Position numbers and translations under genes: made by a program
Shown: in pieces, positions 10,083 to 43,877 of the stretch
Layout of the letters: each line of letters starts with the position of its first letter
Numbering within the stretch: the first letter of the stretch is position 1
From: a virus
Reading direction: 5' to 3' (one strand)
Virus record (IMG/VR): IMGVR_UViG_3300046780_000840
Location: 1 to 43,877 of that record
DNA length: 43,877 bases
The notes under the pieces: generated by a model
Databases searched by the model: none
Seen by the model: the letters and a program-made list of their open reading frames with translations, nothing else
Told to the model about the DNA's origin: nothing

Positions 10083-10207
10083 TGAAGCGACTCAGGCGTC
10101 TGCTGTGCTGCCGCTGGTTGAACCGACACCAGTGGCGGCGCATCAACCTGCGCGACAACCTGTTGCGCAGATGTATACATTGCAAGAAGTTCTCGAGGGC
10201 GACATGA
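10079..10207 (+). CDS. Very small Arg/Cys-rich protein, 42 aa
   Basis: Overlaps its neighbours by ATGA at both ends, which is the main reason to call it a gene. Thirteen Arg/Lys and four Cys (L-L-C-C-R and R-C-I-H-C-K-K) in 42 residues suggest a tiny zinc- or nucleic-acid-binding peptide. An alternative ATG two codons on would also work. The size leaves real doubt. Confidence 0.6.
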   Translation: MMKRLRRLLCCRWLNRHQWRRINLRDNLLRRCIHCKKFSRAT

Positions 10208-10509
10208 TCCCGAACGACGTGCGCAAAGGGCTGCTCGAAAAAGACTACATGAGCGTCGACGTTCGCCAACTGCAGAAGGTGGCGACGGACATGGCCGATG
10301 AGATCGATCGTGCCATGCGCTTGCTCGGCGTGTACGGCGTGTCGCAGGAGCGCGCGCGCAACCGTGTGTCGACCGGCATCGAGGTGCTGGTCACGCGGAT
10401 GGACAAGGAGAACATCGGGCTACGCGGCGAGGTGCTGCGCTTGAAGGCCAGACTGCACAGGATTGAACAGGCGGTGGGCGCGTCCTTGCGCCCCGATCCG
10501 GATTCCTGA
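10204..10509 (+). CDS. Hypothetical coiled-coil protein, 101 aa, last gene of the plus operon
   Basis: Not recognised. The C-terminal half is a likely coiled coil (RMDKENIGLRGEVLRLKARLHRIEQ has leucine-type spacing). The N-terminal half is helical and acidic (DVRQLQKVATDMADEIDRAMRLLGVYGV). The frame opens upstream at 10105, but ATG 10204 is preferred for its ATGA overlap with the 42-residue gene. Its TGA ends at 10509, directly abutting the last base of the convergent secreted-protein gene, with no terminator between. Confidence 0.75.
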   Translation: MIPNDVRKGLLEKDYMSVDVRQLQKVATDMADEIDRAMRLLGVYGVSQERARNRVSTGIEVLVTRMDKENIGLRGEVLRLKARLHRIEQAVGASLRPDPDS

Positions 10510-12153
10510 TTACGGCTGTGGTGCCGGGCAGACCGAGCAGTGCGCGGTCGCCATGTCGGTCGGCTGGTTCGCCACCGGGATCGCCGGGTTGGTTCCCATC
10601 GCCGTCACCGTGTCGCTGAACAAGCCGCCGCTGGCCGGGCTGGTCGAGCCGTCGCCCGCGTTCGGCTGGTAGGTGTACGAGTAGTCCGCACACGCGCCCT
10701 GCACAAGGTGACCGCTGTACACCTGCGTCGGATCCGGCGGGTTGTTGATGCCCACCGCGTCGTCGGCAACGGTGACGTCGAGGTCAAGACCCGTCGTCTG
10801 CGAGGTGTTGCAGACCTGACCACTGACCTTCACCTGCGCCACAAGTACACCGTTCTGCGGCACCAGTTCGACCGTGTTGCACGTCTTGGTCACATGGATG
10901 TCCGGAGACAGCGGCAGCGGCGTGCAGTCGAACGTGTTGGTCGCACTCAGCGTGTTACCGCTGAAGGAGGCCGAACCGAAGACGGTGTTGTGCGGGCCGT
11001 TGTCGTTGCTGAAGAACGAGCCACTGAACGCCTGCGTTCCATTCTTGGCGAGCGGAGCGGCGAGCGTGAAGGTCTGCGTCTGGTCATCGGCCAGCGTGCC
11101 GGGCGTGCCGACATCGTCGCGTACCGTGATCACGGTGCCGATCGGCAGCGAACCGTCCGACGTGTTCGTGACTTGGCCGCTGTAGTCAACCGAGAACAGC
11201 AACGAGGTGTTGTCCGCTGCCGTGGTCAGGCGACCCACGCTGCACGTCTTGGCGATCGCGATCGAGCAGTTCTTGAACGGACCCAGCACGAAGTCTTTCA
11301 ACTGCGCCGTGGTCGAGGCGCTGGTGCGACTCATCACGAGGAAGTTGCTGAAGCACTCCGATCCGCCGAGCAGTGCGGTCAGGTCGACGCCACCCTCGAA
11401 CAGCGTGCCCTGCGGCAGGTTGGCGTCCAGACCCACGCCCTTGAAGTTGTAGCTCCACGGTGCGGGCGTCGCGGTCTTGTTCGCCACCGCGCAGGCGACG
11501 TCGTCGGTCGTGCAGAACAGGCCGGTGGCCGGGTCGATGGTGCCGCCGACCGGGACGCCGTTCTTGATCTCGCTGTGCGCGAGCAGCGTCAGCGGCGAAC
11601 CGGCATTGCCGTTCCACTTGAAGACGTTGATCACGCTGGCACCGCCGCCCTGCAGGAAGTCGGACGTGACCAGAATGTCACCGACCGAATGCTTGCCGAC
11701 GAAGTTGCCACTGGCACCGACGGCGACCGCCGAGCGGAAGAACCAGAAACCGATGGCGCTGTCGCCGCTGTTGGAGAAGCGGTCTGCGCCAAAGTATACA
11801 ATTTCATGGTCGTTCACCGTGAAGAGCGCGGCGAACGCATTCTCGAGGTCGTCCTTGTCGGGGGCCGAGCCGATCGTGTTTTGCCAGAAGGTGTTGGTGA
11901 TGCCCAAAGCCGAGATGTCGCGCTCGTCCTTCGAGCCGCCGCCGATGAAGATCGTGTCGGACGTGCTGACCGCGTCGGGAATGAAACTCTGGCCGACGCC
12001 GGGATTGGCGAAAACATCGGCCCAGTCGATGCCGGGCTTGGCCGGATCGTTGACCGCGTTGCCGTCAAGCTCGAACACGCCATCGTTGTGGACAGCGAAA
12101 GCAGGTGCAGTGATACACAGGCCCAGTGCAAGGGCCAGAATGCGGCTCTTCAT
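10510..12153 (-). CDS. Secreted bacterial-type protein with two DUF11-like repeats, 547 aa
   Basis: An exported protein of unknown role. Seen: a Sec signal peptide (MKSRILALALGLCITAPAFA, cleavage after the A-F-A near residue 20). A first domain of about 270 residues follows, holding the acidic H-N-D-G-V-F-E-L-D-G-N and the motif D-R-F-S-N-S-G-D-S-A-I-G-F-W-F, which resembles a family of secreted bacterial proteins. The C-terminal half has two Ig/DUF11-like repeats, starting near I-A-I-A-K-T-C-S and I-H-V-T-K-T-C-N, each followed by a V-x-x-S-G-Q-V-x-N-T-S strand. Cys residues recur and could form disulphides. It is the last gene of the late operon, 70 bp after the tail fibre, with an AAGGGGA ribosome site. 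Possibly a cargo ('moron') gene altering the host surface, or an unusual adhesin; not a standard virion protein. Confidence 0.85.
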   Translation of the reverse strand: MKSRILALALGLCITAPAFAVHNDGVFELDGNAVNDPAKPGIDWADVFANPGVGQSFIPDAVSTSDTIFIGGGSKDERDISALGITNTFWQNTIGSAPDKDDLENAFAALFTVNDHEIVYFGADRFSNSGDSAIGFWFFRSAVAVGASGNFVGKHSVGDILVTSDFLQGGGASVINVFKWNGNAGSPLTLLAHSEIKNGVPVGGTIDPATGLFCTTDDVACAVANKTATPAPWSYNFKGVGLDANLPQGTLFEGGVDLTALLGGSECFSNFLVMSRTSASTTAQLKDFVLGPFKNCSIAIAKTCSVGRLTTAADNTSLLFSVDYSGQVTNTSDGSLPIGTVITVRDDVGTPGTLADDQTQTFTLAAPLAKNGTQAFSGSFFSNDNGPHNTVFGSASFSGNTLSATNTFDCTPLPLSPDIHVTKTCNTVELVPQNGVLVAQVKVSGQVCNTSQTTGLDLDVTVADDAVGINNPPDPTQVYSGHLVQGACADYSYTYQPNAGDGSTSPASGGLFSDTVTAMGTNPAIPVANQPTDMATAHCSVCPAPQP

Positions 12154-12223
12154 TTGGAATCCCCTTCAGTTGAGTTGCGGATGGCTCGGCTCTGTGACCG
12201 CTCCGGCGCGGAGTGTACTCCCA

Positions 12224-14161
12224 CTACGGCGCGGCGTTGAACATGCCACCGACGTAGTAGTACTTGCCGTTGCCGTCGTAGAAAAAAATGTAGACCGAAT
12301 TCTTGCCCGCCTGAAGCTGGGTGACCGGCACGCCCTTGGTGTCGGACCCGAAGTTGAGGTTCATGGTCACGCCCGCGTAGACGTTGAGGGTCAGGAGGCA
12401 ACTGCTCGCCGGGGCGGTGAAGGAGCAGGACACCGACGACGAAGAGTTGGGAGCGACGGCTTGGCTGGTCGCCGTCGGCCAACTGACGTTGAAGGCCGAG
12501 GCGCTGATGATGCCGATGTCGAAGTACGGATTGAGGATGCTCGGTGATGTAGCCAAGCCGAGCGAGACGGCACCGCTGAAGGTCTTGGCACCGGCGATGG
12601 TCTGCGTGCCTGTGGTCATCACGCCGCCGAAGTTGGCGCTCGCCGGTTGCAGGGTGAGGATGTTGTTGCTTGCGCCGGAGATCGTCGCGCCCTGCGCGTT
12701 CGAACCGCCACCGATGTTGCCCAGTGCGTTGATGCCGCCCGCGGGGCCGACGGTGCCGGTCGCGCCTGTCGCACCCACCGCGCCCTGCACACCCTGCACG
12801 CCCTGCGGACCCTGCACGCCCTGCACGCCCTGCGCGCCCGTCGCACCCACCGGCCCTGTCGCGCCCGTCGGCCCCGGCGGCAGCACTGCCGGAAGGTTGG
12901 CCGCGACGAGGTTTCCGCTGAACGCCCCGCCGCCCTGCACCTGCAGCGTGTTGACGCCGTCGTCGGTGCTCTTGCCGATCGCGATGCGCCCGGTCGAGAC
13001 GTTCAGGGCAGTGCCGGTCAGGCCGAACCCGTAGATCATGTTCGCGATGACAAGCTGGCCGTTCGCGGTCGGGCTCGGGAAGGAGACGCTGTAGCCGATG
13101 GCGACGTTCTGCGCGCCGGTCGTGAGGTTGCTGCCAGCACTGCGACCGAGCGCGGTGTTCTGAGCGGCGGTGGCCTGCGACAGTGCGGAAGTACCCACCG
13201 CCGTGTTGTCGTTGCCGGTGATGTTGGCGTTGAGTGCCGCGTAGCCGACGGCGACCACGCTTTGGCAGGTTGTCGCGTTGAGCAAAGACTGGTAGCCGAC
13301 GAACGTGTTGAAGCTGCCGGTCGTCAGGTAGTAGCCAGCGGCGTTGCCGACGGCGGTGTTTCGGCTCCCGGTCGCGGTGAAGTTGCCGCCTGCGCTCTGC
13401 CCGACGAAGAAGTTGGGCTGGATGCCCCCGCCGAAGCAGTGCAAAGCGGGATTGCCATTGATCGTCAGCACGCCGAGGGTCGGGCTGGTCGTGTTGGGCA
13501 GATCGAACGAGGAGTTGCTGATCACCTGCGCGAAGGTCTTCGCACCGGCGAACGCCTGCGCGCCGGTCGTGACCACGCCGCCGAACGACACGCTCGCAGG
13601 CTGCAGGTTGAGGACGCTGCCGCCGGTGATCGTCGCAGCGTTCGCATTCGGCACCGCGCCGATCGCGGAGAGCGCGCTGATGCCGCCGCTGCCGGGAATG
13701 CCCTGCGGTCCCGTGGGTCCGGTCGGACCGCCCGCAGCGCCCGTCGCCCCGACCGCTCCCGTCGCGCCCGTCGCGCCCGTTGCGCCCGTTGGCCCGATCT
13801 GGCCGGGGTCGCCCTGCACGCCCGCGCCTGTCGGTCCCACCGGGCCCGTCGCACCCGTCGGGCCGGTCGGGCCTACCGTGCCGGTGGCCCCTGTCGCACC
13901 TGTCGCACCTGCGCCGGTTGGCCCCGTAGCGCCCACAGGGCCGGTGCTGCCGGTCGCGCCGGTCAGCCCCTGCGTTCCGGTCGCGCCCGTCGCGCCCGTG
14001 GTTCCTACCGCGCCTGTGGGGCCGGTGATGCCAACGCCGTTCGACCCGGTCGCGCCGGTTGCGCCAGTTGCGCCGGTTGCGCCAGAGCCCGTCGCGCCGG
14101 TTGCGCCGGTCGCGCCTGTTGCGCCGGGTGCGCCGCTGCCGGGGAGTGCGGACTGGCTCAT
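12224..14161 (-). CDS. Collagen-like tail fibre with YadA-type head repeats, 645 aa
   Basis: A trimeric appendage protein, probably host-binding. Seen in order: a short N-terminus; a first Gly-X-Y collagen block, residues about 8-157, dominated by GAT and GPT triplets; a roughly 70-residue domain ending T-T-G-x-Q-x-x-A-G-A-K-T-F; N-T-A-V-G/A-x-G repeats (about 250-357) like the trimeric beta-roll of YadA heads; a second Gly-X-Y block (about 425-474); a second copy of the 70-residue domain; and a C-terminal beta domain ending [12 protein letters not shown]. The two copies of collagen plus domain indicate internal duplication. A seven-T run with slippery T-TTT-TTC lies near the end (12281-12287). 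It follows another fibre-like gene by 3 bp. Confidence 0.88.
12765..12890 (-). repeat. Second collagen-like Gly-X-Y repeat block
   Basis: Coding repeats in the fibre gene, including repeated GVQ triplets ([16 protein letters not shown]). Together with the longer block upstream it makes the fibre's two triple-helical segments. Confidence 0.85.
13090..13415 (-). repeat. YadA-head-like beta-roll repeats
   Basis: Repeating units with N-T-A-V-G or V-A-I/V-G-Y followed by A-x-x-x-x, spaced roughly 14-24 residues, as in trimeric autotransporter heads. Seen in the translation of the fibre gene. Confidence 0.75.
13690..14140 (-). repeat. First collagen-like Gly-X-Y repeat block
   Basis: About 150 residues of Gly-X-Y triplets (GAT, GPT, GPV) near the N-terminus of the fibre, visible at DNA level as a 9-nt-periodic GC-rich repeat. 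It is a coding repeat, not a CRISPR array. Confidence 0.9.
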
Positions 14162-15514: not shown

Positions 15515-17628
15515 GTCGGCGGCTGATTCGGGCTGCGCTTCACAAACGGGCGAGCGCCGGGCACTGCCGCCTCGAACGTGTCGAGGAGTCCCTTCGTGCT
15601 GCGCTTGACCTCCCTGCCGCTCGACATGCGGATGCCCAAACCGACGGCTGGCAGCCCGAGCTTCTCGGCCATCTCGGCAGCCCTTTGGACGTCCGGATCC
15701 ATGCCCTGACGATCCAGCTTGCGCGCGGCCCACGACATCATGCCGGGCAGCACCGAAGCCGCCTGCTCACCGGCGAACTTCGAGACGCTCTTCTGGCCGG
15801 TGATGAGCTTGCCGATGTTGAGGCTCTCCTCGATGAAGGGATTCGTTTGCACCAGCGCGCGGAAACCTGCAGAGGCTCCCTCGCCGATATTCTTTCCCGG
15901 CCTGTGCGCGACCCACGCGACCGTCGCGCCCATCTGCATCGCGGTGGCGAGCGGGTGCTCGAGCAGTTGCTTGGAGATGTCGACGTGATGGCCGAACGCC
16001 TCGAGCCGAATCGTCTCGTCTTCCGGCTTCATGCCGCCGTGCCCGCCGGGCTGGTACAAGCCGCCGAAGTTCCTGTAGAGGAACCAGCCGATTGCCATGC
16101 CCGCCATGCCGACGGTCTGCTTCTTGAGGTTGCGCATGATCGAGTCGGCCTGCTCGGGCGTGAGCGCGGCGAGCGCGTCTTTCACCGCACTGCCTTCGCT
16201 CTTCATCAGCCCGGCGCGAATGTCGGCGCGAGCCTTCTGCCCTGCCGCTCGCCACTGCGCACCCGCGCCCGCGAATCCGCCGACGTAGCTCATGCGTGAG
16301 ACCCAGACGTTGCTCGGCACCTTCGTGATCGGCAGCAGCCAGCGCAGCGTTTTCTCTCCCGTCTTCGCCGCGAACGACATCGACGTGTTGCCTGCCGCAA
16401 CGCGCTGCAAATTGCCGAGCAGGTTCGAGTAGACCTCGCTCATCACGTTCTTGTTCTGGAAGATCTCGCGCTCGCCGTCGGCCCATGCTTTCGCTGCGAT
16501 CTCTGACATCACCGCCGGATCCGCCATGTGATCGGCGATGTCCTGTTCGCTCACTCCGGCCTTCCGCAACCTCGCGATCTCGCTCGCCGTGCGATGCGTG
16601 AGTGAGCGCGACCACTGGTTGATCGCGGCGGGCACCTTGAGCATGCCGTGGATGTTGCCGATGAGTTGCGTGAGCTTGAACTCGGATTGGAAGTCGCTAT
16701 GTACCTCGGCCTGCCCGTGCAGCCGCGCGATCTCGTGCGTGCCGGTGCGCGCGTACTCGCCCATCAACTGCAGCGTTTTCTTCGACCCCGTTTCCTTGAG
16801 TGCCTTGGCTTCGGTGCGGAACAATCCTGCAGCGCCGCCTTCGCTCGCCGCCTTCGCCGCGACGTTCGGGAAGATCTTGCGCCAGAATTTCCCGCTGGGC
16901 TCGAGCGCGAGCGAGCGCAGCGCGATGTTGCTGAAAGCCGTCGCCGGAAGTTTCACGAGCACGTTCGGACCGAGCAGCATCATCGAGCGGTGAACCTCGA
17001 CGACCATGTCGGCGATTTTCTCGCTGGGACTGCGGTTCTCCATCTGCGCTTTGCGCTGGCCCTTCTCCCACTCGTTGCGCAATCCGTTCAAGCGCGCCTG
17101 CGCCTGTTCGGTCTCGGTCGTCTGGAGGTACGACTCGCGCGGCGCGGCCCTGCGGTAATCACCGGCGGCGATGCGGTCCTCGAGCGCCTTGACCGACTTC
17201 TCGATCACGTTCTGGCGCGCCTTGTTCTTCAGCGCGTTGTCGCGCTCGGCCTTGAGTGTCGTGACCTCTTCGGTCTGCGGCCCCTGCTGCTTGGCTGCTG
17301 GCGTGCGCGTCTCGCCGGAGGCGATCCTGTCGATGTCGGACTTGAGTTTCGCGACGCCACCTTCCTCGCCGCGCCCGCGTAGATCTTTCAGTTCCCGGTG
17401 GAACGCCGCGACGCGCGCCTGCAGATCGTCCTTCTTCGGCTTGTCGCCGCCGGGATGCCCGACGAGGATGTCGGCGATCTCACTGCGCTCGAGCGGCGCG
17501 TCGTCTTTGATCGCCGCCTTGATGTGGTCGAGGATCACGTCGGGATCGGTGTGGCCTTCGTCGACCTTCGCGCTCGCCATGCGACGCAGGATCGCCTTGA
17601 GTTTGTCAGTGGCGTCGCAGCCGTTCAC
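15511..17628 (-). CDS. Helical partner of the giant polyvalent protein, 705 aa
   Basis: This looks like the C-terminal module of the very large virion proteins of Bcep22-like phages. It is long, helical and charged at first (LKDLRGRGEEGGVAKLKSD, then NEWEKGQRKAQMENR). A middle region around residues 205-480 has hydrophobic helices (MLLGPNVLVKLPATAF, WRKIFPNVAAKAASEG), one clear hydrophobic segment is MAGMAIGWFLYRNFGGLY, and the rest is basic. In relatives these residues usually continue the giant chain. Here they form a separate gene: GTG 17628 overlaps the upstream TGA as GTGA and AAGGAG lies at 17636-17641, 8 nt ahead. Probably an internal or ejected protein acting with the 2274-residue protein. 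Confidence 0.8.
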   Translation of the reverse strand: MNGCDATDKLKAILRRMASAKVDEGHTDPDVILDHIKAAIKDDAPLERSEIADILVGHPGGDKPKKDDLQARVAAFHRELKDLRGRGEEGGVAKLKSDIDRIASGETRTPAAKQQGPQTEEVTTLKAERDNALKNKARQNVIEKSVKALEDRIAAGDYRRAAPRESYLQTTETEQAQARLNGLRNEWEKGQRKAQMENRSPSEKIADMVVEVHRSMMLLGPNVLVKLPATAFSNIALRSLALEPSGKFWRKIFPNVAAKAASEGGAAGLFRTEAKALKETGSKKTLQLMGEYARTGTHEIARLHGQAEVHSDFQSEFKLTQLIGNIHGMLKVPAAINQWSRSLTHRTASEIARLRKAGVSEQDIADHMADPAVMSEIAAKAWADGEREIFQNKNVMSEVYSNLLGNLQRVAAGNTSMSFAAKTGEKTLRWLLPITKVPSNVWVSRMSYVGGFAGAGAQWRAAGQKARADIRAGLMKSEGSAVKDALAALTPEQADSIMRNLKKQTVGMAGMAIGWFLYRNFGGLYQPGGHGGMKPEDETIRLEAFGHHVDISKQLLEHPLATAMQMGATVAWVAHRPGKNIGEGASAGFRALVQTNPFIEESLNIGKLITGQKSVSKFAGEQAASVLPGMMSWAARKLDRQGMDPDVQRAAEMAEKLGLPAVGLGIRMSSGREVKRSTKGLLDTFEAAVPGARPFVKRSPNQPPT

Positions 17629-20600
17629 AGGTAGCACTCCTTGGTCATCATCTCTTCGCGCTTCAGTTTCTTGAAGTCCTCGAGCGCATCGGCGAATTTT
17701 TTCTTCGCGTTGTTGACCACCATCTCGGGCTTCTCCTTGAGACCCGGCGATGCGAGTTTATCCTTGAGCCGCTTGCGCTCGTCGGCGTCCTTCTTGATCT
17801 CGGCGCGCTCGGTCTCGGAGAGGTCGCGACCGGCCTTGACCTTGCGCGCGGCGAGCAACCCGCCGTACGACTCATCCGAATTCACCAGCAGTCTGCGCGC
17901 GAGACCGGAATTCGACCACTCGGTTCCGGCGTGGACGGCTGCCTTCTCGTTCGTGTCGCGCTCTGCCTCGTGGAGCTTCATCATCGCGAGCGCGACCTGC
18001 GTGGCGTCGTGGTCTTTCAGATCCATCGCATCGGACGCGCGCTTGGTCGCGTCGTCGTGCGCACGCACGATGCGCTGCCGGTCGACGGCGAGGATCGCCG
18101 CCTCGACGTCGCTGATGTTGCGCGGGGTATTTGCGACTTCGTTCGCGATCTCGCGCCCGCGGTTCGGGTTCTTGCGCAACTCCTCGTGCGCAGCGGCGTG
18201 GAGTTCCTCGCCGGTCTTGCCGCGGATCTTCTCGATCATCTCCTTGCCGCGGGCCAAGCGCGCCGCCTCGGTGTCGACATTCGCAATCGACGACGCCTCG
18301 TGCTCCGCGGTCAGCCCCTGATGTGAAGTCTGCCCCTTCTGCTCATCGGGAACGCGAACGCCTTCATCTTTGACGGTGCCTTCGCCGGTTGTTTCGTCGC
18401 CTTTGGTCTCAGCAGCGCGTGCTGTAGTTTCGCCTTCACGAACGGGTGCATTGTCGCGCCCGGCATTTTCCCCGGCGACGCCGGTGATGCGTCCTGCACC
18501 AGACTCGGTGCGTTCGGTAGCCAGCCCATGTCCCACCTCCGTTGTCTTCGCGCGCGTCGGCACCTTCGCGCCGAGCACGGTTGCCTGACCATCAGGCGTC
18601 TTGTAGCCATCGAAGCCGTGCGAGATAACGAGCCTCTCGAACTCGTTCATTATGTGCGGCAGATCCACGGGCAACGAGTGCGCGTCGAGGTTGTCGCGCG
18701 CGATGTCGAACAGGCCGCGCGGATCTGCTTTCGCGTCGTAGAGATTGCGCAGCACGGTCTCGTGCTTGCCGCCGCCGCCCTCGGCCGACGTGAACTGCGT
18801 GCGCGAAGCGATGCCCTTCACCGCGTTCGGCAGATCCAGACGGCCATGCTCGTTCGCGGTGCGCTCCGGCAGCGCCCGGTCGGTGACCGCGTGCATCGCG
18901 ACGGCGTCGGGTTGCTGGCCGCGGATGTTCGCGCGCGGCACGGCCGGATCCACCTTGCCGACCTGCGCCTGCTCGCGGCCGGTCGTGCGCGCCCACTCCT
19001 TGAACTGCGCCGGGGTGAACTGCTCGACCTGCCCCATGCGGTCCCAGCCCTTCGGGTATTCGGACAGGTACGCACGCTCGGCATCACGCTGATTCTTCGC
19101 GCCGACGACAACCTTGTGCTCGTCGAATCCACCGGCGGCGTTCTTCTGGTGGATCACGAACACCGGGCGCGATGGATCCGCGGCTTCGCCCGCGACCAGC
19201 ACGTCCATGGATCCGCCGTCGCGGCCGGGCACGCCCTCGACGTAGCCGTAGGGGTGCTTCATCACGGTCGAGAAAGGCTTGCCCTCCTCGGTCGTGCCGG
19301 TGCGCGTCTGCCCCTTGTCGGTCTCGATGTGGAGGTTGCCGATCGAGGACTTGATCGTCCTGACCGGCTCGCCGTCTTCGGTCTTGTCGGAGTGCGGCGG
19401 AACATTTTCTTCCGCCGCGAGGCTCAACTCCGGTGCTTCGGTTACGCCTTCGGCTCGGCCTTTGTCCCAGCCGTAGCGTTTGGCGAAGTCTTGGTTGACG
19501 GCGTCAACGCGGGGACGGAGGTCTTTCTCAATCCAGTCTTGTATATCGGATCGTCCGGCCCAGCTACGTGGTCGAGCTTCTTCAATCGCTCGAGACGCCG
19601 CTTCGATTCTTCCTCGGTAATTTGCTGGTCCATTTGCTGCCTCGCTGCTGATGTATTCGCCGTCACTCTGGAAGCGAGTGTAGTCGGACACCTCATTGTG
19701 CCATGGTTGATCATGTATAGCCATCTGGACGGCTGAATGAAAATCGTCATTCGCCTTCCTCGTGACCGACACGAGCTTGCCTTGGGTGAGACCCTTGGGA
19801 ATCGCGGGGAAGTTGAGGACGCGCACGCCCTGCCCGTCGACAGTCGGGATCGGTGGTGCTTCGCTGTGCCCGAGGTGCTTGGCGAGGGCGGTGTAAAACG
19901 CCGCGTTTTCCTCCTCGGTCAGGTGCCGCCCGAGGTTGATCTCGGCCCCGTTCTGGACGTACTTCGAGCCGTCGTAGATCGGGTAGTGCCACGCCATCGC
20001 TTTCTGGTTCAGCAGTTGCCCGCGGATCGACTGCGAGAGCTCGATCAGCCGACGCGAGTTCTCGCTGACCTTGCCGTCCTTCGTGTAGATCGGCTGCGCG
20101 TGCTGCGTGCCGACGGTCGACTTGCCTTCCCATCCGGAGAAGCCCTCGACGCCGGGACCAGCGAACGGGCCCACCTCGGTGTCGATTGCGTCGCGGCCAT
20201 CCTCGTTCTTCAGCGCGTCCTGAATCGCGCGGTGATACTCGATCTTCTGCTCCATCGGCGCATCGTGGATCCCCGGCAGCACGCCAGACTCCACCGACGG
20301 GATCGACTCGTGGCTCAGTTGCGCGGCGCGATCGTTCAGCGCGTTGCCGAAATCGTACGACGCCGCGCGCGTGTCTTCGGCCGACACGTCGAGCGCCATC
20401 GCATGCTTGAGCCAGACCCCGCGATGCTTGCCTTCGTCGAGGACGTTGCGAACCTCCTCGCCTTTCGGGTTCGTGTCGTAGCGCATGTAGCCTTTCTTCG
20501 TCGACTCGGCTTCGGTGCGCTCCTTCACGCCCTTGTTTTCGGTGCGCGCTTTCATCGCGACCCAGATCGCGGCCTGCACTTCCTCGGGGCTCCAGCCCAT

Positions 20601-23600
20601 CTCTTGCGCGACGCGGTTCACTTCGTTTTCGACGAAGCGGTAGGCCGCATCCGTTGGCGAGTCGGTGTGATATCCGGCTGCGCGCATCATCCACAGATCG
20701 ATGGTCGCGCCCTGCTTCGCGTGCGACGCCGGATCCACATGGCGCATGAGGTTGTTGTAGAAGTTGTTGGTCTTCTCGCCGCCCTCGAACACGCCGTCGC
20801 CGTACAGCACGCGAGAGGCGTACGCATCCTGCACGCCGGTCTTCGCGTTGATCGGCTGGCCCGCCTTGTACTGCTCCCACGCATGCAGGGCCATCGTGGT
20901 GTTGGCGTCGACCTTCGCTTGCGGCGAGTAGATCGCGAGCACCTTGGCGAGCTTGCGCGCTTCCTCGACGCTGCCCGCGTGCTGCAGGATCCATGCGCCC
21001 GAATCCCTGTACCAGTACCTGCCGCTCTCGCCTTCTTGCGTCAGTTGGCGGAACAGTCGGCGCAGGCCACCGATCTTCGCGGGCGTGTTGTACTTCGCCG
21101 GTGCGCCGATGTATTGCCCGGCTCGAGCGCCGCCCTGATACCGCGCGTTGTCCGCAACTTCGCCGCCGCGGCCGAAGCCGCCAAGCTGCTCCGGCGAGGT
21201 TGTCCTCTCGGCCTTGCCCGCGGCTGCAGCGACCGCTTGCTCCTCCTCGTCGTCCGGAGCCTTGCGGAGTGATGGCGCGCCGACGCGACGCATCGTGCCC
21301 GATTTGATCCCGGCGTCGAACGCGTGCGTGTGCATCACCGCCGACAGCACCTGCCGGTACGCGTCGACATCTTTCACGTACCGATTGGTGCCGTAGTCGG
21401 AAACCTTTCCGAGGAACGTGTCGAGGTACTTGCCGAAGGACGATGCGAGCTTGCCGAACGCGGTCGGGTTTTCCTTCGCCATGCGCTCCATGAATGCGCG
21501 ATCGCCGAGCGCGTCGCCGTTGGTGTCGGCCGTCAATTCCTCGGCGTGTTTCTCCGGCCTGTAGCCGCGGCCTACCGCGCTCTGGCCGAACGCCTCGACG
21601 CCGCCCTGACGCTTGATCTCGTTCTCGAGGATCTGGTAGAGCGGCGGCGCTGTGCGCTTGAGTTGGTGCGTCCATTCGTGCGCCAAGGTGTGAACGATCG
21701 GATGCTGCGAACTCTCGTTGACGAAGAGATGGCCGTTGTACATCGCGCCGTTGAAACGCACGCGGCCTTCCCAGCCCGGCGTGTTGTCGCGGATGACGTG
21801 AACTTGTGTACCTGTGAACTTCTCCACTTCGTTGATCGCGGTCTGCACTTCCGGCGGCAGGTGATCGCGGTGGATCTCCTCGAGGTCGATCTTCGCGCCG
21901 GTCGGATCCGGAGCGTGCTCGTTGAGCGCCGCTGAGAGTTTGTCGGTCTGCTCGGTCTTCGCCGACGGCAGATCCTTCGGGATCCCGGTGTCGCCCGCGG
22001 GTGCGCCCAGCGCCTGCTTCAACTCCGGCTCCTCGCCCTCGGGTGCCGCCAGACGCAGATCCGGAGCCTCGGTTTTCACCTCCGGCCCTTTTGTCAGTGC
22101 CTTCTCGGAAAGCTGAAACTCGGGACTCGTCGGCGGCGAGGGCCGATGCCCTTCGATCGTTTGCTCGCCCTCGCGGACCGGCGTCGGCGCTTCGCCGCCG
22201 GTGACCGTGCCTTCTGTCAGTTTTGGCGGCTCCGGCTTCGGCTTGGGTGGAACCCGCTTGGCCGTCTCCATGGCCGCGGCCAGCGTGGTCGGGATCGGCG
22301 GGCCTTGGCCGCGCGCAGCAGCCTCGCGCGCTGCGTCTTCGCTCGCTGCGATTGAGGCCGCGGTCTGGACGTCCCCAGACTGCCGCTCGTGCTCGATCTC
22401 AGCCTCTTGCCGTGCGCGGTCGGCCTCTGCCTGCGCGTGCGCCGCCTCGGTGGCCTGCACGTCGGTCACGCGCACCGCGGGCGCGCCCACCGGCGCTACA
22501 GGCGGCTGCAGGCGCTCCTTGGCGACCGCCTCGAGGCCCGTGGCAGGGATCGGCTCGCCCTCCGGCGCTGGCGGCACCTGTGCGCCGGGATGCTCGTCCG
22601 GCGGCAGCGGTGGCAGGACGTGGATCGCCGTGGTGTCGAGCGCGCCCGGCGAGCCGATGGGCGGCGGCGTGACGTTGAGCGGCTGGCCCGGCGCGCCGAC
22701 GAGATCCTCGGCTGCCTGCAGCGTCGTCTGCCCTTCGCCCGGCGCTTGCTCTGCGGCGGTCGGTTCGGTGACCGCCTTCGCCGCCTTCCACTCTTGGTAC
22801 GCGGCCTCGTCGCGCGTCTCGCCCTTGACCGTGATGTTGTGCAGTTCGGCGGTCGCCCAGAGCCCTCCGGCCGCACCCTTGTCCTTCATCGTCTCGGCGA
22901 CCCACGTCAGGCGCGACATGTTCTCCGGATCGTGCTCGAGCGCCGACATCGCGTTCGCGAACTTCGGCAGCAGGATCTTCTGCTGCTCTTGGTGCATCTG
23001 GCCCATGGCCGCGCCGACGGCCATCGATGCGATGATGCTCGCCGGTGTGATCGGCTGGCCTGCTGCTGCCGACGCCGCGATGTCCTGCGCGGTGAACGCA
23101 CTGCCACCGCTGATCGCCTTCTCCCACCACGCGCCGCCGCGCGCCATCGGCATCGACATCTGCACCGTGCCTGTCGCGAGCTCCTCCGCGGTGCCGAGCG
23201 CGGTCGCCGCTGCCGACCCGCCCTTCTCCGCGATCTGCTGCCCGCGCTCGATTGCGCCCGGCAGGGAACCGACCGCACCGGCAGGCATCTGCTGCACCGT
23301 AGTCTCGACCGCCTGCTGCCAGACCTGCCGCCACAACGGCATGCTGAAGAGCTCTGTCGCTGGCGTCAGGAGCATCTCGGGGTTGTAGGTCGCGGCCATC
23401 GCAACGAGGCCGGGGATCATCTTCGCAACCTTGTCGACGGCCTGCTCGCCGATGCCTACCGGGAGCGGCTTGTTCGCTTCGGCCATCGCGACCATGTCGT
23501 CTTGCGGCTTGACGCCGTACTTGAACAGGAAATCGCGCGCAGCCTCCGCATGGTCGCCGAAGATCGACAGCACCCCGGCGGCGGTGAGCGCCGGGAGTTT

Positions 23601-24449
23601 CGCGAATTCCTCGGTGCCCTCGAGGACGTCGTAGGCAACGATCTGGCCGTAGCGCCCCGCCGTCGTTCGACCGAACGCCGCGAGCTCCTCTTTTGAGACT
23701 TTCCCGGTGCCGAAATCGGGTGCGGTCTCGGACGCGTAGCCCGGCTCGACCGCAGAGAGTTCTGCTTGCGGTGTCGGCGGTGCGGGCGGGTTGTAGTTCT
23801 TGTCGAACGCGGTCGCCTTCGGCGCGCCCATGAGATCCGAAAAAATGCTGTCCGACATGTACGGGATGAAGTGCGCGTCGTTGGCGACGACGTTCTTCGC
23901 GTACGCGTGCGCGTCATCGGCACCGAGCACCGGGCTGGCCGCGTCGTACGCCTGCTGGTAGCGATCGCTCGCCATCAGCTTCTCGTGCGGGAGCGCATCG
24001 ATGATGTCGCCGGGCTTCTGCACGCCGGTGGCGAGCTCGCCGGTTGGCGTGCCCATGGTGCCGAGGACGTGGTCGATTTTCGCGAGGCGCTGCGCCGCGA
24101 GCTTCGCCTGCGCTCTCGTCTCGCCGTCGGTGTTCGGATCCGCGCCGTCGAAGATCTGCTGCTGCAGCGCCGTGCGCTTGTCGAGGAGATCCTTCGCCGT
24201 GATCGGATCCGTCTCAGGCATTGAGACGGGCTTGCCGTCGAGCGAGTTGTTGTACGCCCGCGAGGCGTGATCTTTCAGGTGGCCCCAGTAGTCGCCCCAC
24301 CAGTCGTCGGGTGCGGGCTGCGCAGGTGGCGGCGTTGGTGCCGCGGGCGAGTCGGCCAACAGCCCGGTGTTTGGATCGAACTGGAAGCCCTGCTGACCGC
24401 TGTCAGCCAGCAGGCCAGTTTCGGGATCGAACTGGAATTCGCCTGCCAT
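17625..24449 (-). CDS. Giant polyvalent virion protein (zincin, pyrophosphatase-like and possible ART domains), 2274 aa
   Basis: A very large multidomain protein of the kind packaged in podovirus-type virions and delivered with the DNA. Seen: a tandem N-terminal repeat F-Q-F-D-P-E/N-T-G-L-L-A-D-S (residues 5-34); mostly helical, Ala/Pro-rich sequence to about 800; a metallopeptidase-like site H-E-W-T-H at 924-928 with a downstream E-E-L-T-A-D (970-975) as candidate third ligand; a large unassigned domain at about 1100-1655; an inorganic-pyrophosphatase-like domain at about 1690-1826 (Y-G-Y-V-E-G near 1734, then G-R-D-G-G-S-M-D-V-L and F-D-E-H-K-V); a segment at about 1888-1962 resembling ADP-ribosyltransferase-like polyvalent domains; and a helical C-terminus. 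The zincin and pyrophosphatase matches are fairly clear, the ART match weak. The gene just downstream is probably its continuation. Confidence 0.88.
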   Translation of the reverse strand: MAGEFQFDPETGLLADSGQQGFQFDPNTGLLADSPAAPTPPPAQPAPDDWWGDYWGHLKDHASRAYNNSLDGKPVSMPETDPITAKDLLDKRTALQQQIFDGADPNTDGETRAQAKLAAQRLAKIDHVLGTMGTPTGELATGVQKPGDIIDALPHEKLMASDRYQQAYDAASPVLGADDAHAYAKNVVANDAHFIPYMSDSIFSDLMGAPKATAFDKNYNPPAPPTPQAELSAVEPGYASETAPDFGTGKVSKEELAAFGRTTAGRYGQIVAYDVLEGTEEFAKLPALTAAGVLSIFGDHAEAARDFLFKYGVKPQDDMVAMAEANKPLPVGIGEQAVDKVAKMIPGLVAMAATYNPEMLLTPATELFSMPLWRQVWQQAVETTVQQMPAGAVGSLPGAIERGQQIAEKGGSAAATALGTAEELATGTVQMSMPMARGGAWWEKAISGGSAFTAQDIAASAAAGQPITPASIIASMAVGAAMGQMHQEQQKILLPKFANAMSALEHDPENMSRLTWVAETMKDKGAAGGLWATAELHNITVKGETRDEAAYQEWKAAKAVTEPTAAEQAPGEGQTTLQAAEDLVGAPGQPLNVTPPPIGSPGALDTTAIHVLPPLPPDEHPGAQVPPAPEGEPIPATGLEAVAKERLQPPVAPVGAPAVRVTDVQATEAAHAQAEADRARQEAEIEHERQSGDVQTAASIAASEDAAREAAARGQGPPIPTTLAAAMETAKRVPPKPKPEPPKLTEGTVTGGEAPTPVREGEQTIEGHRPSPPTSPEFQLSEKALTKGPEVKTEAPDLRLAAPEGEEPELKQALGAPAGDTGIPKDLPSAKTEQTDKLSAALNEHAPDPTGAKIDLEEIHRDHLPPEVQTAINEVEKFTGTQVHVIRDNTPGWEGRVRFNGAMYNGHLFVNESSQHPIVHTLAHEWTHQLKRTAPPLYQILENEIKRQGGVEAFGQSAVGRGYRPEKHAEELTADTNGDALGDRAFMERMAKENPTAFGKLASSFGKYLDTFLGKVSDYGTNRYVKDVDAYRQVLSAVMHTHAFDAGIKSGTMRRVGAPSLRKAPDDEEEQAVAAAAGKAERTTSPEQLGGFGRGGEVADNARYQGGARAGQYIGAPAKYNTPAKIGGLRRLFRQLTQEGESGRYWYRDSGAWILQHAGSVEEARKLAKVLAIYSPQAKVDANTTMALHAWEQYKAGQPINAKTGVQDAYASRVLYGDGVFEGGEKTNNFYNNLMRHVDPASHAKQGATIDLWMMRAAGYHTDSPTDAAYRFVENEVNRVAQEMGWSPEEVQAAIWVAMKARTENKGVKERTEAESTKKGYMRYDTNPKGEEVRNVLDEGKHRGVWLKHAMALDVSAEDTRAASYDFGNALNDRAAQLSHESIPSVESGVLPGIHDAPMEQKIEYHRAIQDALKNEDGRDAIDTEVGPFAGPGVEGFSGWEGKSTVGTQHAQPIYTKDGKVSENSRRLIELSQSIRGQLLNQKAMAWHYPIYDGSKYVQNGAEINLGRHLTEEENAAFYTALAKHLGHSEAPPIPTVDGQGVRVLNFPAIPKGLTQGKLVSVTRKANDDFHSAVQMAIHDQPWHNEVSDYTRFQSDGEYISSEAANGPANYRGRIEAASRAIEEARPRSWAGRSDIQDWIEKDLRPRVDAVNQDFAKRYGWDKGRAEGVTEAPELSLAAEENVPPHSDKTEDGEPVRTIKSSIGNLHIETDKGQTRTGTTEEGKPFSTVMKHPYGYVEGVPGRDGGSMDVLVAGEAADPSRPVFVIHQKNAAGGFDEHKVVVGAKNQRDAERAYLSEYPKGWDRMGQVEQFTPAQFKEWARTTGREQAQVGKVDPAVPRANIRGQQPDAVAMHAVTDRALPERTANEHGRLDLPNAVKGIASRTQFTSAEGGGGKHETVLRNLYDAKADPRGLFDIARDNLDAHSLPVDLPHIMNEFERLVISHGFDGYKTPDGQATVLGAKVPTRAKTTEVGHGLATERTESGAGRITGVAGENAGRDNAPVREGETTARAAETKGDETTGEGTVKDEGVRVPDEQKGQTSHQGLTAEHEASSIANVDTEAARLARGKEMIEKIRGKTGEELHAAAHEELRKNPNRGREIANEVANTPRNISDVEAAILAVDRQRIVRAHDDATKRASDAMDLKDHDATQVALAMMKLHEAERDTNEKAAVHAGTEWSNSGLARRLLVNSDESYGGLLAARKVKAGRDLSETERAEIKKDADERKRLKDKLASPGLKEKPEMVVNNAKKKFADALEDFKKLKREEMMTKECYL
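17636..17641 (-). promoter_or_regulatory. Ribosome binding site for the 705-aa gene
   Basis: AAGGAG on the minus strand, 8 nt before GTG 17628 and inside the end of the 2274-aa gene. It decides the start at 17628 over a GTG at 17637 that overlaps the site itself. Confidence 0.65.
24348..24437 (-). repeat. N-terminal tandem repeat of the giant protein
   Basis: Two copies of F-Q-F-D-P-x-T-G-L-L-A-D-S, residues about 5-17 and 22-34, differing only by Glu/Asn at x. It may be a targeting or capsid-docking tag for packaging; only the repeat is seen. Confidence 0.8.
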
Positions 24450-37713: not shown

Positions 37714-38178
37714 TTACCAGAAGCGGACGGTGATGGTGACGTTGTACGTGCCCGCAGGCGTGCCTGTGGCCGCAGCATTGGACACACGCAACGCTGTCTG
37801 CAGCACGCCCGGCGTGTCGCCATCCTGCATCAGGTCGATGCGCCCCTTCTGCGTTGCCGATGGAGCGAGGCCGGGGTTGTAGGCCGCGACACGTCCATCG
37901 AGATCTTGACTGCCGTACGCTGAACCGACGTTGGGCAATCCGGTCAGCGGGCCGACAGCCTGCGCGGCGTACTTGGCGATCGTCGCAACTGTGCCGATCT
38001 GGATGAGACCGGCAGCCGTCGTGCCGACAATTGCCGCGGCGACGCCAGCCGAGATGTCATCGATGGCAGCGAAGCGGCAGCCCGCCGGGACGCGAATCGC
38101 GCCAAGCGCCGCCGAGGCGGCGTTGTTGACGCCGGAGAAGTTGTAGACGTTGCGGATGCCGGAGGTGTCGTAGCTCAT
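37714..38178 (-). CDS. Probable capsid decoration/head-stabilisation protein, 154 aa
   Basis: Beta-rich small protein directly downstream of the major capsid gene (ATGA overlap at 38178), the usual place of head decoration proteins. Ala/Gly/Thr-rich (GVAAAIVGTTAAGLIQIGTVA), a central D-L-D-G-R-V-A-A-Y, and a C-terminal beta hairpin (LQTALRVSNAAATGTPAGTYNVTITVRFW cut). No motif proves it. Start 38178 is used rather than the GTG at 38193 because of the junction. Confidence 0.72.
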   Translation of the reverse strand: MSYDTSGIRNVYNFSGVNNAASAALGAIRVPAGCRFAAIDDISAGVAAAIVGTTAAGLIQIGTVATIAKYAAQAVGPLTGLPNVGSAYGSQDLDGRVAAYNPGLAPSATQKGRIDLMQDGDTPGVLQTALRVSNAAATGTPAGTYNVTITVRFW

Positions 38179-39215
38179 GTCTGGCTCTCCCACTTCAGAA
38201 TGCGGGAGTTCGGGAAATCGTCCGCAGTCTTGTCACCCTGCGTCCTCCCGTACCCCAGCAAAGCGTACCACGCGATGCCCTTGCTCCGACCGTAGTCGGT
38301 GGGGATCTTGCCGCGGATCTCCTCGGGAATCGCGATGGCCTCGGCGACAGTGTCTTCGCCGAAGAAGAAGATCCAGTCCGACTTGTTGTTCGACCACGGC
38401 TGTGGTGTGTCGGTCTGCGGGTTGAACGTCGTGAAGTTTTCCGCACCGCCTTTCGGGATGTGCGTCTGCTCCACGAAGCGCATGTTGTAGAAGCGGCCGA
38501 TCTCGCCGTTCATAATCATGCCGAAGCCCGTCTCGGTGTACTGATACGTCTGCTCCAACTGCGGGTTGGCCGGGTCCGAACCCTTGATGTACGTGAAGGT
38601 CGTCGGCCGCGCGATGCAGTAGTAGTCATCGCCGATGAAGGCCGGGATGTTGCGCTCCTTCATGTTGTCGACGATCAACCGCAGGTGGCCCTTGGCGAAC
38701 GGGCAGTTGTTGACGACGCCGATCGAGCCGGTGCCGGGCGACGAACTGATCACGATCGACGCGCCCGCGCTCGCCGCAGCATCCGAACTGTTGACCTTCA
38801 GTCCGGTCGAGTTGAACTGCGCCCACGCTTGGATGTCGAGCGCCTGCTTGCAGTCGTGCTTCAGCACGCGGTGGATGATCTCCTGCACCGGGTGCTGCGA
38901 CAGGTTGTCGAGCTTCTGGGTGAAGGGAACGGAGTTGCCGTACTCCGTCATCGTCACGCTCTTCTGCGTGATGATGAAGTTGGTCTCGGGCATGGCGTTC
39001 GTTTCGTTCAGCGGCGCGCCCTTGGTTTGCGCGCGTGAGTAGACGTTGAACGAGTACGTGTCGCCGCGCTGCAGACCCTTGTCGGTGGCGTCCTTCGCAT
39101 CGCAGAACTGCCGGAATTTCACGACCGGCAGCACGGACATGCGGAGTACGTTCGACAACTCGGGGGCGAACATGAAGCCGCCGAGCGCGTTCACACTCCA
39201 AATTTGACCCGCCAT
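38175..39215 (-). CDS. Major capsid protein (N4 gp56-like HK97 fold), 346 aa
   Basis: Likely the shell protein. Seen: an early G-G-F-M-F-A-P-E-L-S-N-V-L-R-M-S part, a beta segment D-T-Y-S-F-N-V-Y-S-R-A-Q, then S-V-T-M-T-E-Y-G-N-S-V-P-F-T-Q-K-L-D-N-L-S-Q-H-P-V, which matches the pattern of N4-gp56-type and related coat proteins, and a later V-L-K-H-D-C-K-Q-A-L-D-I. Preceded by the scaffold gene, followed by a small decoration-type gene. Ribosome site GAGGAG. A 9-bp hairpin lies 39-63 bp upstream of the start. Confidence 0.82.
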   Translation of the reverse strand: MAGQIWSVNALGGFMFAPELSNVLRMSVLPVVKFRQFCDAKDATDKGLQRGDTYSFNVYSRAQTKGAPLNETNAMPETNFIITQKSVTMTEYGNSVPFTQKLDNLSQHPVQEIIHRVLKHDCKQALDIQAWAQFNSTGLKVNSSDAAASAGASIVISSSPGTGSIGVVNNCPFAKGHLRLIVDNMKERNIPAFIGDDYYCIARPTTFTYIKGSDPANPQLEQTYQYTETGFGMIMNGEIGRFYNMRFVEQTHIPKGGAENFTTFNPQTDTPQPWSNNKSDWIFFFGEDTVAEAIAIPEEIRGKIPTDYGRSKGIAWYALLGYGRTQGDKTADDFPNSRILKWESQT

Positions 39216-41866: not shown

Positions 41867-43877
41867 TCACCCGGCCGCGCCGGGCAGTTGGCCGAACTTG
41901 CCGCGCTCGATCGTGCCCGCGGCACCGGGCACCATGGGCCCGCCGCCGTTGGAACGCAACGACTGGATGAACGGCTGGTCTTGCGAGAGCTCCGGCGTCT
42001 CGGTCGGCAGCGTCGCCTGCTGCGGCGACGGGATGGACGTCGCGATCTTCAACTGGAATTCGCGATCGGCCTGCATGATCGAGTTCGACAGCGCCTCGCG
42101 CTCGAGCAGCAACTGGCCCTGCTTGATCACGTTGCCCTCGCGCAGGATCTGCGTGTCGAGTTGCGCGATCTGGTGCTTGAGGTCGGCGACGTAGTGCTTC
42201 GCGGCCTGCGTGCCGAGCGCGACGTTGGCCTGCACCTGCGCCTTGATCGTCGCGATCTTTTCCGCGGACGACGCCCTGATCTGCGCAATCTTTTCCGCCG
42301 ACGCGTGCTTCGCCGCTTCCTGTTGCGCCGCGGCCTGCAGATCCGCCACCTGCTTCTTGAGGTTGGTGACCTGCGGATCTTCCTGCCCCTGCTGCTTGAC
42401 CGACGGGAAGAAGCGCGAGCCGTCCTTGTAGCCGAGGATGCCCATCACCTCGCGCACGACCTCGGGACCGCTGACCTCCGCGGCCATCTGCGGTGCCATC
42501 TGGCCGATCGTCGAAAAGCCGATCGCGAGGCGCTGGATCCGCTGCAGCGGGTCGGTGTTGCCGAAGCCGACGCTGACCTGCAGGTTGACCGGCTGCTGCA
42601 TCGCGCGGAACGCGGTCTGCCAGTCGGACTGCGAGGTTTCGCCTGCGGCGATCTCGAGCACGGTCTGGTCGTTCTCGAACTCGCGCTCGAGCTCCACGCA
42701 CTGCGCCAGCACCGGCTGCACCCATGTCTCGACGTACGTGCGCAGGCCCAGTTCGGTGACGAGGTCCGCGCCTTGGCCGAGGAGCTCGGTGTTGCGCACC
42801 TTCTGGTCGCGCTGGCTGACCGCGCCGATGGTCGACTGGCTCATCGTGCCGGTGACGTCGCCGAAGTCCAGATCAATGCGGTCCTGCTCGGTGTACGCCG
42901 CCGACGTGACGTCCTTCGTCTCGAGTTGCTTCACGTCGGAAGTCGGCTCGGTCGTCATCGTGATCGAGCCGGGCACGTTGCGCATCAGCGAGCGCATGTC
43001 GGTCATCTGCCCGCGCTTGACGATGTAGCGGTTGTTCAACGCGAGGCGGATGTTGTCGTTGCGCTGATTGAGAATATCGTTGCCGAATTCCTGCAGCGAC
43101 TTGCTGACCTCGACCGGGCCCGACGGGTAGATCCGGTGCGGCTCGATCATGCAGTTGCCCATCACGTACGGGCGACGCGAGATGCCGAACACTTCCTCGA
43201 GCGGCACCGGGTCGGAAAGCTGGCGCACGGTGCCGAGCGTTTCGTAGACGTAGTCGAGGCCGTCGACGCGCACGATGTTCCGATGCACCCACACGATGCG
43301 GTTGTGCTGGCCCTGCTGCACCTGCGAGTAGCGGTCGAGTCGTGCGCCGGTCTCGCGCGCTTGGCGAATGACCTGCGCGGTCGCGCTCTGGTCGGAGCCG
43401 CCGGAGAGCAACTCCTGCTCGTTGAAGTCCTTGAGGTACGGCACCTGCGAGCCGTACGAGCGCGCGTTCTTGATGTGGTAGACGAGGTCGTCGACGAACC
43501 ACGGGATCTGCTCGATCACGTACGGGCTCGAGTTGATCGGATCGGCCCAGTCGCTCGACGGGTGGATGCGCACGTTCTCCACCGGGATCAGCCGCACCCA
43601 CGGCGTGTCGCGCGTGATCTTCGTCTTCTTGCGTTCGACGCCGGTCGCCTTGCCGGTGGCGTCGTATTCGTCCTCGATGATCGTGGCCTCTTGGTAGCGC
43701 CACTCCTGACACGAGAGCACCACGCCCTGCGACATCGCGTCGAAGAAACCTGCGAGCGCGATCTTGAACCACGGCACCGTTTGCTTGAGCCGGTGATTGA
43801 GCACCGCCGTGTGGACTTTCGCCGCCGTGACCTGCGCCGGATCCGACTGGTTCAATGCTTCGCAGTTCGTCACCTCC
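41867..43877 (-). CDS. Portal protein, C-terminal part; N-terminus outside the window
   Basis: The head-to-tail DNA gate. About 669 codons are visible. Seen: T-P-W-V-R-L-I-P-V-E-N-V-R-I-H-P-S-S-D-W typical of the portal wing/stem region, Q-F-x-x-D-I-L-N-Q-R-N-D-N-I-R-L-A, D-F-G-D-V-T-G-T-M-S-Q-S, and a coiled-coil C-terminus (residues about 515-615: VTNLKKQVADLQAAAQQEAAK, EKIAQIRASSAEKIATIKAQ). A long coiled coil at the end is known for P22-like portals. A GTG at 43873 follows GGAG but sits inside a conserved region, and the codon before it is in frame, so I treat the gene as cut at the edge. Confidence 0.88.
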   Translation of the reverse strand, partial: EVTNCEALNQSDPAQVTAAKVHTAVLNHRLKQTVPWFKIALAGFFDAMSQGVVLSCQEWRYQEATIIEDEYDATGKATGVERKKTKITRDTPWVRLIPVENVRIHPSSDWADPINSSPYVIEQIPWFVDDLVYHIKNARSYGSQVPYLKDFNEQELLSGGSDQSATAQVIRQARETGARLDRYSQVQQGQHNRIVWVHRNIVRVDGLDYVYETLGTVRQLSDPVPLEEVFGISRRPYVMGNCMIEPHRIYPSGPVEVSKSLQEFGNDILNQRNDNIRLALNNRYIVKRGQMTDMRSLMRNVPGSITMTTEPTSDVKQLETKDVTSAAYTEQDRIDLDFGDVTGTMSQSTIGAVSQRDQKVRNTELLGQGADLVTELGLRTYVETWVQPVLAQCVELEREFENDQTVLEIAAGETSQSDWQTAFRAMQQPVNLQVSVGFGNTDPLQRIQRLAIGFSTIGQMAPQMAAEVSGPEVVREVMGILGYKDGSRFFPSVKQQGQEDPQVTNLKKQVADLQAAAQQEAAKHASAEKIAQIRASSAEKIATIKAQVQANVALGTQAAKHYVADLKHQIAQLDTQILREGNVIKQGQLLLEREALSNSIMQADREFQLKIATSIPSPQQATLPTETPELSQDQPFIQSLRSNGGGPMVPGAAGTIERGKFGQLPGAAG

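Follow-up and report, generated by a model that had tools for sequence, protein, structure and literature searches.

A phage gene at the end of a virion-gene run encodes a predicted secreted protein of very probable bacterial origin

The window analysed here is the whole 43,877-nucleotide stretch comprising positions 1 to 43,877 of IMG/VR virus record IMGVR_UViG_3300046780_000840. On its minus strand lies a gene (10510–12153; assigned from the ORF, its translation and full-length homologues) for a 547-residue, predicted secreted protein, referred to below as P0002; the reading frame opens with ATG and runs 12153→10510, completely filling the span singled out in an initial annotation of this DNA. 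An RBS-like AAGGGG, read from the sequence (12161–12166, minus strand), is located 7 nucleotides before the start codon. The gene directly follows that of a 645-residue collagen-like fibre (12224–14161, minus strand, located with tblastn) and closes a co-directional, leftward run of virion genes that takes in an SU10-type portal (41867–43873) and the major head protein (38175–39215). A convergent plus-strand ORF (10105–10509) ends with its stop codon abutting that of P0002. The initial annotation described it as the last late gene, after the fibres, which holds for its position in the gene run; no promoter of its own was recognised in the window, and the arrangement suggests that P0002 would be expressed late, from the virion-gene transcript. 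Two other contigs of this phage carry the gene in identical form, and the GC content of its region (64%) compares with 65.5% for the window. Relatives of a neighbouring 708-residue protein, sought for an empty-site comparison, came from the same phage only, as did relatives of the helicase (at 99–100%).

Just after the P0002 stop codon, inside the convergent ORF, lies a 22-nucleotide G+C-rich hairpin (10474–10495, minus strand; GGGGCGCAAGGAYGCGCCC) that resembles a terminator or stabiliser and has AAGGA in or beside its loop. The same element, identical at 21 of 22 bases, follows the closest copy of the gene, in the phage locus L056 (11637–11655). We considered the hairpin as a mark of a mobile cassette and dropped that idea, since a 19-mer from it also follows capsid-like genes in other phages (L071 and L074); it is probably a common terminator or stabiliser hairpin.

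P0002 is a real gene and not a chance ORF, since full-length homologues exist and since the L056 copy, 72% identical in protein sequence, differs from it by saturated synonymous change with a dN of about 0.23. The same two values indicate an old age and purifying selection for both copies. Identity between them is 70–77% across the mature domains (77% for the N-terminal domain and first repeat) and 50% in the signal region. The L056 gene is 45% GC in a 20-kb locus at 42% GC, carried by a phage of 63.5 kb, and the base composition of each copy is fitted to its own phage.

The first 20 residues of P0002 (12094–12153, minus strand) form a predicted Sec signal peptide, recognised by N-terminal hydrophobicity and an A-x-A site; the N-terminus reads MKSRILALALGLCITAPAFA and continues VHN, with cleavage predicted between AFA and VHN, a junction retained in the L056 copy. 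Compared with the other N-termini of 25 likely window genes, this hydrophobic stretch is the strongest (a Kyte-Doolittle value of 2.99 across 10 residues; the runner-up reaches 2.2) and is followed by A-F-A, two properties that uphold the clean Sec signal peptide read by the initial annotation. Homologues likewise begin with a signal peptide ahead of the N-terminal domain. The mature protein contains 11 cysteines in 527 residues, against 0.49% in 12 other proteins of the window (a 4-fold excess, p 8e-5). Given this enrichment together with the signal peptide, P0002 fits an oxidised, extracytoplasmic protein, and we regard it as a predicted exported protein, probably located at the surface or outside the cell.

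A Sec signal and a late gene position could also describe a periplasmic lysis or envelope helper, the lysis role having been raised by the initial annotation. We consider this very improbable: P0002 has no enzymatic or muralytic domain, no spanin or lipoprotein features and no membrane anchor except the signal peptide, and its bacterial relatives (described below) are encoded in biofilm- or secretion-type neighbourhoods with no lysis context.

The signal peptide is followed by a beta-rich N-terminal domain (residues 21–297; 11263–12093, minus strand), delimited by an alignment of relatives (A6) and an AlphaFold model, which defines the family and is a putative binding domain. The alignment contains 22 invariant columns across 47 relatives, and P0002 carries its pattern, a domain of about 275 residues with invariant K, PDK, R, GD, W and ESRxS...LKDF elements; the motif DRFSNSGDSAIGFWFF at residues 124–139 falls where conservation in the family is highest. 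The model of this domain (pLDDT 88.9, pTM 0.90) matched no PDB structure or viral model at E<=0.001, and P0002 contains no known adhesive tip domain, the N-terminal domain having neither a Pfam family nor a fold match. The leads that did appear, to 2ivf (ethylbenzene dehydrogenase gamma) and the L-type lectins VIP36 and ERGIC-53, were below significance and were set aside.

The remainder of the protein consists of two DUF11/DUF7507-like repeats with an Ig fold. Repeat 1 (residues 298–410; 10924–11262, minus strand), identified by a repeat-versus-repeat profile match, has KTC at its start and a cysteine at its end, and repeat 2 (residues 416–541; 10531–10908, minus strand), identified by profile match and Foldseek, ends in a C-x-x-C tail that is conserved in bacterial relatives and also present in phage copies. 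A comparison by hhalign shows that the two repeats are homologous (probability 98.6, E 6.7e-16). P0002 itself matched nothing in Pfam even at E 1, and the gathering cut-offs of DUF11 (PF01345) and DUF7507 (PF24346) were not reached; DUF7507 is found at the equivalent position in relatives, and 26 of 43 family members match it, with 10 of 43 matching DUF11 (E<=0.1), so that the 'DUF11-like' label of the initial annotation was right. The full model (pLDDT 85) has its Foldseek matches in the Ig-like stalk regions of integrin alpha chains. This agrees with a published analysis in which DUF11 repeats are stalk domains of fibrillar adhesins and one DUF11 cluster is integrin-like in structure (PMC9210967). 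P0002 resembles those fibrillar adhesins in being a predicted exported protein with an N-terminal domain and Ig-like, DUF11/DUF7507-type stalk repeats; it differs from them in having two repeats only, no recognised adhesive domain and no cell-wall or membrane anchor, and any binding activity is putative.

Searches of Pfam, PHROGs, NCBIfam and PDB sequences with P0002 returned no family or match. P0002 is a divergent, full-length member of a family of secreted bacterial proteins represented at 48 chromosomal loci with about 30–44% identity; in the literature searched, neither phage nor bacterial members of this family are described, nor are its N-terminal domain and its repeated capture by phages. 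Full-length relatives occur in Gammaproteobacteria, Acidobacteriota and others, and relatives of the N-terminal domain in Chloroflexota and Myxococcota. Two conjugative Vibrio plasmids, pLMB143 and pHLB-202008, also encode a full-length relative, situated at a distance of a few kb from genes for replication/partition and for a CS1-type pilus. Members of the family (e.g. WP_077202393.1, a 'hypothetical protein' of pLMB143, and those of loci L007–L054) align with P0002 over its full length and share its signal peptide, N-domain motifs, two cysteine-bracketed repeats and C-terminal CxxC. We are confident, from these comparisons, in the identity of P0002 and in its bacterial origin. They support the initial annotation where it supposed a host surface gene as the source and where it judged P0002 not to be a standard phage part: the homology search returned overwhelmingly bacterial secreted proteins and not a set made up wholly of phage fibres, with no copy in a named phage and no PHROGs family.

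The bacterial genes have recurrent neighbours that are missing next to P0002. With neighbour families defined as clusters, one representative of each being checked by Pfam, an M11-like secreted peptidase is present at 26 of 49 loci, a VpsR-domain sigma-54 regulator at 18 of 49, and the type II secretin GspD at 9 of 49, the last together with other type II genes. Such neighbours suggest that bacterial members act outside the cell in connection with biofilm or the surface, and possibly that they are exported via type II secretion. At L009, L016, L046 and similar loci the secreted N-domain/DUF11-type protein, the peptidase and the regulator form a conserved and hitherto undescribed cluster, joined at some loci of this type by a type II secretion operon; we regard the cluster as a candidate extracellular matrix system.

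These surroundings raise the possibility that the phage copy acts as a mimic, disturbing or adding to a matrix protein of the same family made by the host itself (through dominant-negative or cross-linking effects), so that biofilm or clumping would be changed and progeny would escape or be retained. The adjacent secreted peptidase, VpsR-domain regulator and occasional type II secretion genes of bacterial relatives are consistent with such an activity, as is the retention of the C-terminal CxxC tail in phage copies. However, identity to the nearest bacterial copies is about 44%, with no close homologue in a known host, and several phage carriers have other C-terminal modules (PKD, SprB), so that copying of a whole host protein is not general; we consider the idea possible but doubtful. 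The plasmid copies bear on a further proposal, that P0002 is a conversion gene serving the fitness of a host or pseudolysogen (the attachment or persistence of infected cells) and not a tool of the lytic cycle. Carriage by conjugative Vibrio plasmids indicates that other mobile elements find the family useful, but a scan covering a subset of the window's ORFs recognised no integrase and the gene sits within a virion-gene run, and we judge this proposal to be improbable.

A search of 50,697 named phages with two family members found no relative. A set of 2.9 million viral contigs yielded at least five further phage lineages that encode the family, whose presence in phages is sporadic. Identity to P0002 is 72% for L056/L057, 34% for L055, 44% within the N-domain for L058, 35% for L059 and 31% for L084, with L060 a distant addition. 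The A6 profile matched all 7 of the other carrier contigs, six of them at E<=1e-81 and G007 at 5e-8. Phage hallmarks in these contigs include terminases (L056/L057 and L059), a portal (L055), an SU10 portal (L084) and SbcCD-like, amidoligase and DnaB phage families (L058). G007/L060, which is distant and actinobacterial in type, was kept apart, with no terminase or portal family found; its gene (L060, 9557–11074) encodes a relative of that type that has SpaA/SdrD_B repeats, and the contig, which is only putatively viral, is rich in collagen-like repeats.

In a tree of the N-terminal domain, phage copies are scattered over several positions, a single phage origin was rejected (AU p 0.0015), and at least three changes were needed under well-supported branches. 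Because the tree has long branches, the exact count is loose; that phages acquired the family more than once is a firm reading of it. The donor of the window's copy is absent from the sampled sequences. The gene itself occupies various positions: in both L056 and L058 it lies among early or replication genes, and in L055 it precedes the portal. These differences indicate that lateness is not a general property of the family.

The variable position is also relevant to whether P0002 might be a surface-exposed virion part, carried on the tail or on the collagen-like fibre, in which case the signal-like segment would be a structural helix or the protein would join the particle after lysis. Ig-like domains are common on phage virions, and Hoc is an Ig-like domain protein found on the virions of tailed phages. 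P0002 is like Hoc-type proteins in its Ig-like domains and unlike them in its Sec signal peptide and in having bacterial secreted proteins as relatives. Placement directly after the collagen-like fibre gene within the virion-gene run would suit a virion part, as would the similarity of DUF11 to a collagen-binding domain fold (PMC9210967). Against this stand the strong signal peptide with its A-x-A site in phage copies, which speaks against ordinary virion assembly, the bacterial secreted homologues, and a gene position that changes from phage to phage, unlike that of a conserved virion part. P0002 also has no homology to known virion families, as judged from PHROGs and named phages. Taken together, a virion location seems to us quite unlikely.

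The window and L056 phages have a second gene in common. The fibre upstream of P0002 is collagen-like (with GATG repeats), YadA-head-like in its middle part and conserved at its tip, and has a counterpart at 11982–13550 (minus strand) of L077, to which it is 42% identical by tblastn over 582 residues; the tip is 43–45% identical in both related contigs. The two phages additionally share a 120-residue stretch of a neighbouring 522-residue ORF (58%) and a weak stretch of a giant protein. Their portals are related only by profile, and the window's proteins show almost no tblastn similarity to contig G003. We describe these phages as very divergent and not as wholly unrelated, since SU10-type portals are common to the window, G003/G004 and G008 by profile. 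A shared fibre and secreted protein would be expected if both phages infect the same or similar hosts. A more specific version, in which the fibre and P0002 move as a pair between very divergent podoviruses sharing a host, P0002 being a repeatedly captured, secreted mask or matrix modifier matched to the fibre, we consider unlikely.

Our leading reading, held tentatively, is that P0002 is a captured and exported fibrillar-adhesin- or matrix-like protein that acts late in infection to alter the surface of the infected cell or what surrounds it, with reduced re-adsorption or superinfection as the most likely result. It would be an accessory ('moron'-type) phage copy of a bacterial secreted protein, made late from the virion-gene transcript and then exported by the Sec route; where the host has a type II system, P0002 would probably be passed on to the cell surface or the outside. 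There the N-terminal domain may bind a surface or matrix ligand, with the two cysteine-rich Ig-like repeats serving as a short stalk. The benefit would most likely be that the doomed cell and its debris are coated or altered, so that progeny or competing phages neither re-adsorb nor superinfect; a close alternative form would be altered clumping or an altered biofilm matrix around the cell. A protein that coats or modifies the surface of the infected cell, as the initial annotation proposed, would be compatible with the features of P0002, namely its signal peptide, its many cysteines, its stalk-like repeats and the gene neighbourhood of its bacterial relatives. That an adhesin-like family was captured by phages more than once suggests, without proving, that phages use the protein in this manner.

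Exported proteins encoded by phages are a known kind, as are accessory genes that change the surface, and little is known of phages exporting a large, multidomain, surface-type protein. Among superinfection-exclusion proteins that phages send to the envelope, T4 Spackle acts early, inhibiting the gp5 lysozyme in the periplasm (PMC7677548); P0002 is predicted to be similar in being made by a phage and leaving the cytoplasm, and differs as a 54-kDa, multidomain protein encoded at the end of a virion-gene run, with a putative role in exclusion. If P0002 does act by late receptor masking or matrix change, it would represent a novel means of curbing wasted re-adsorption or superinfection, and would provide a direct handle on an undescribed, widespread family of bacterial extracellular proteins.

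Elsewhere in the window, a 2274-residue protein (17625–24449, minus strand) contains an inorganic-pyrophosphatase-like domain (PF18823), a DUF7178 and a weak M91 peptidase-like stretch, and is probably a multi-domain virion or ejected protein.
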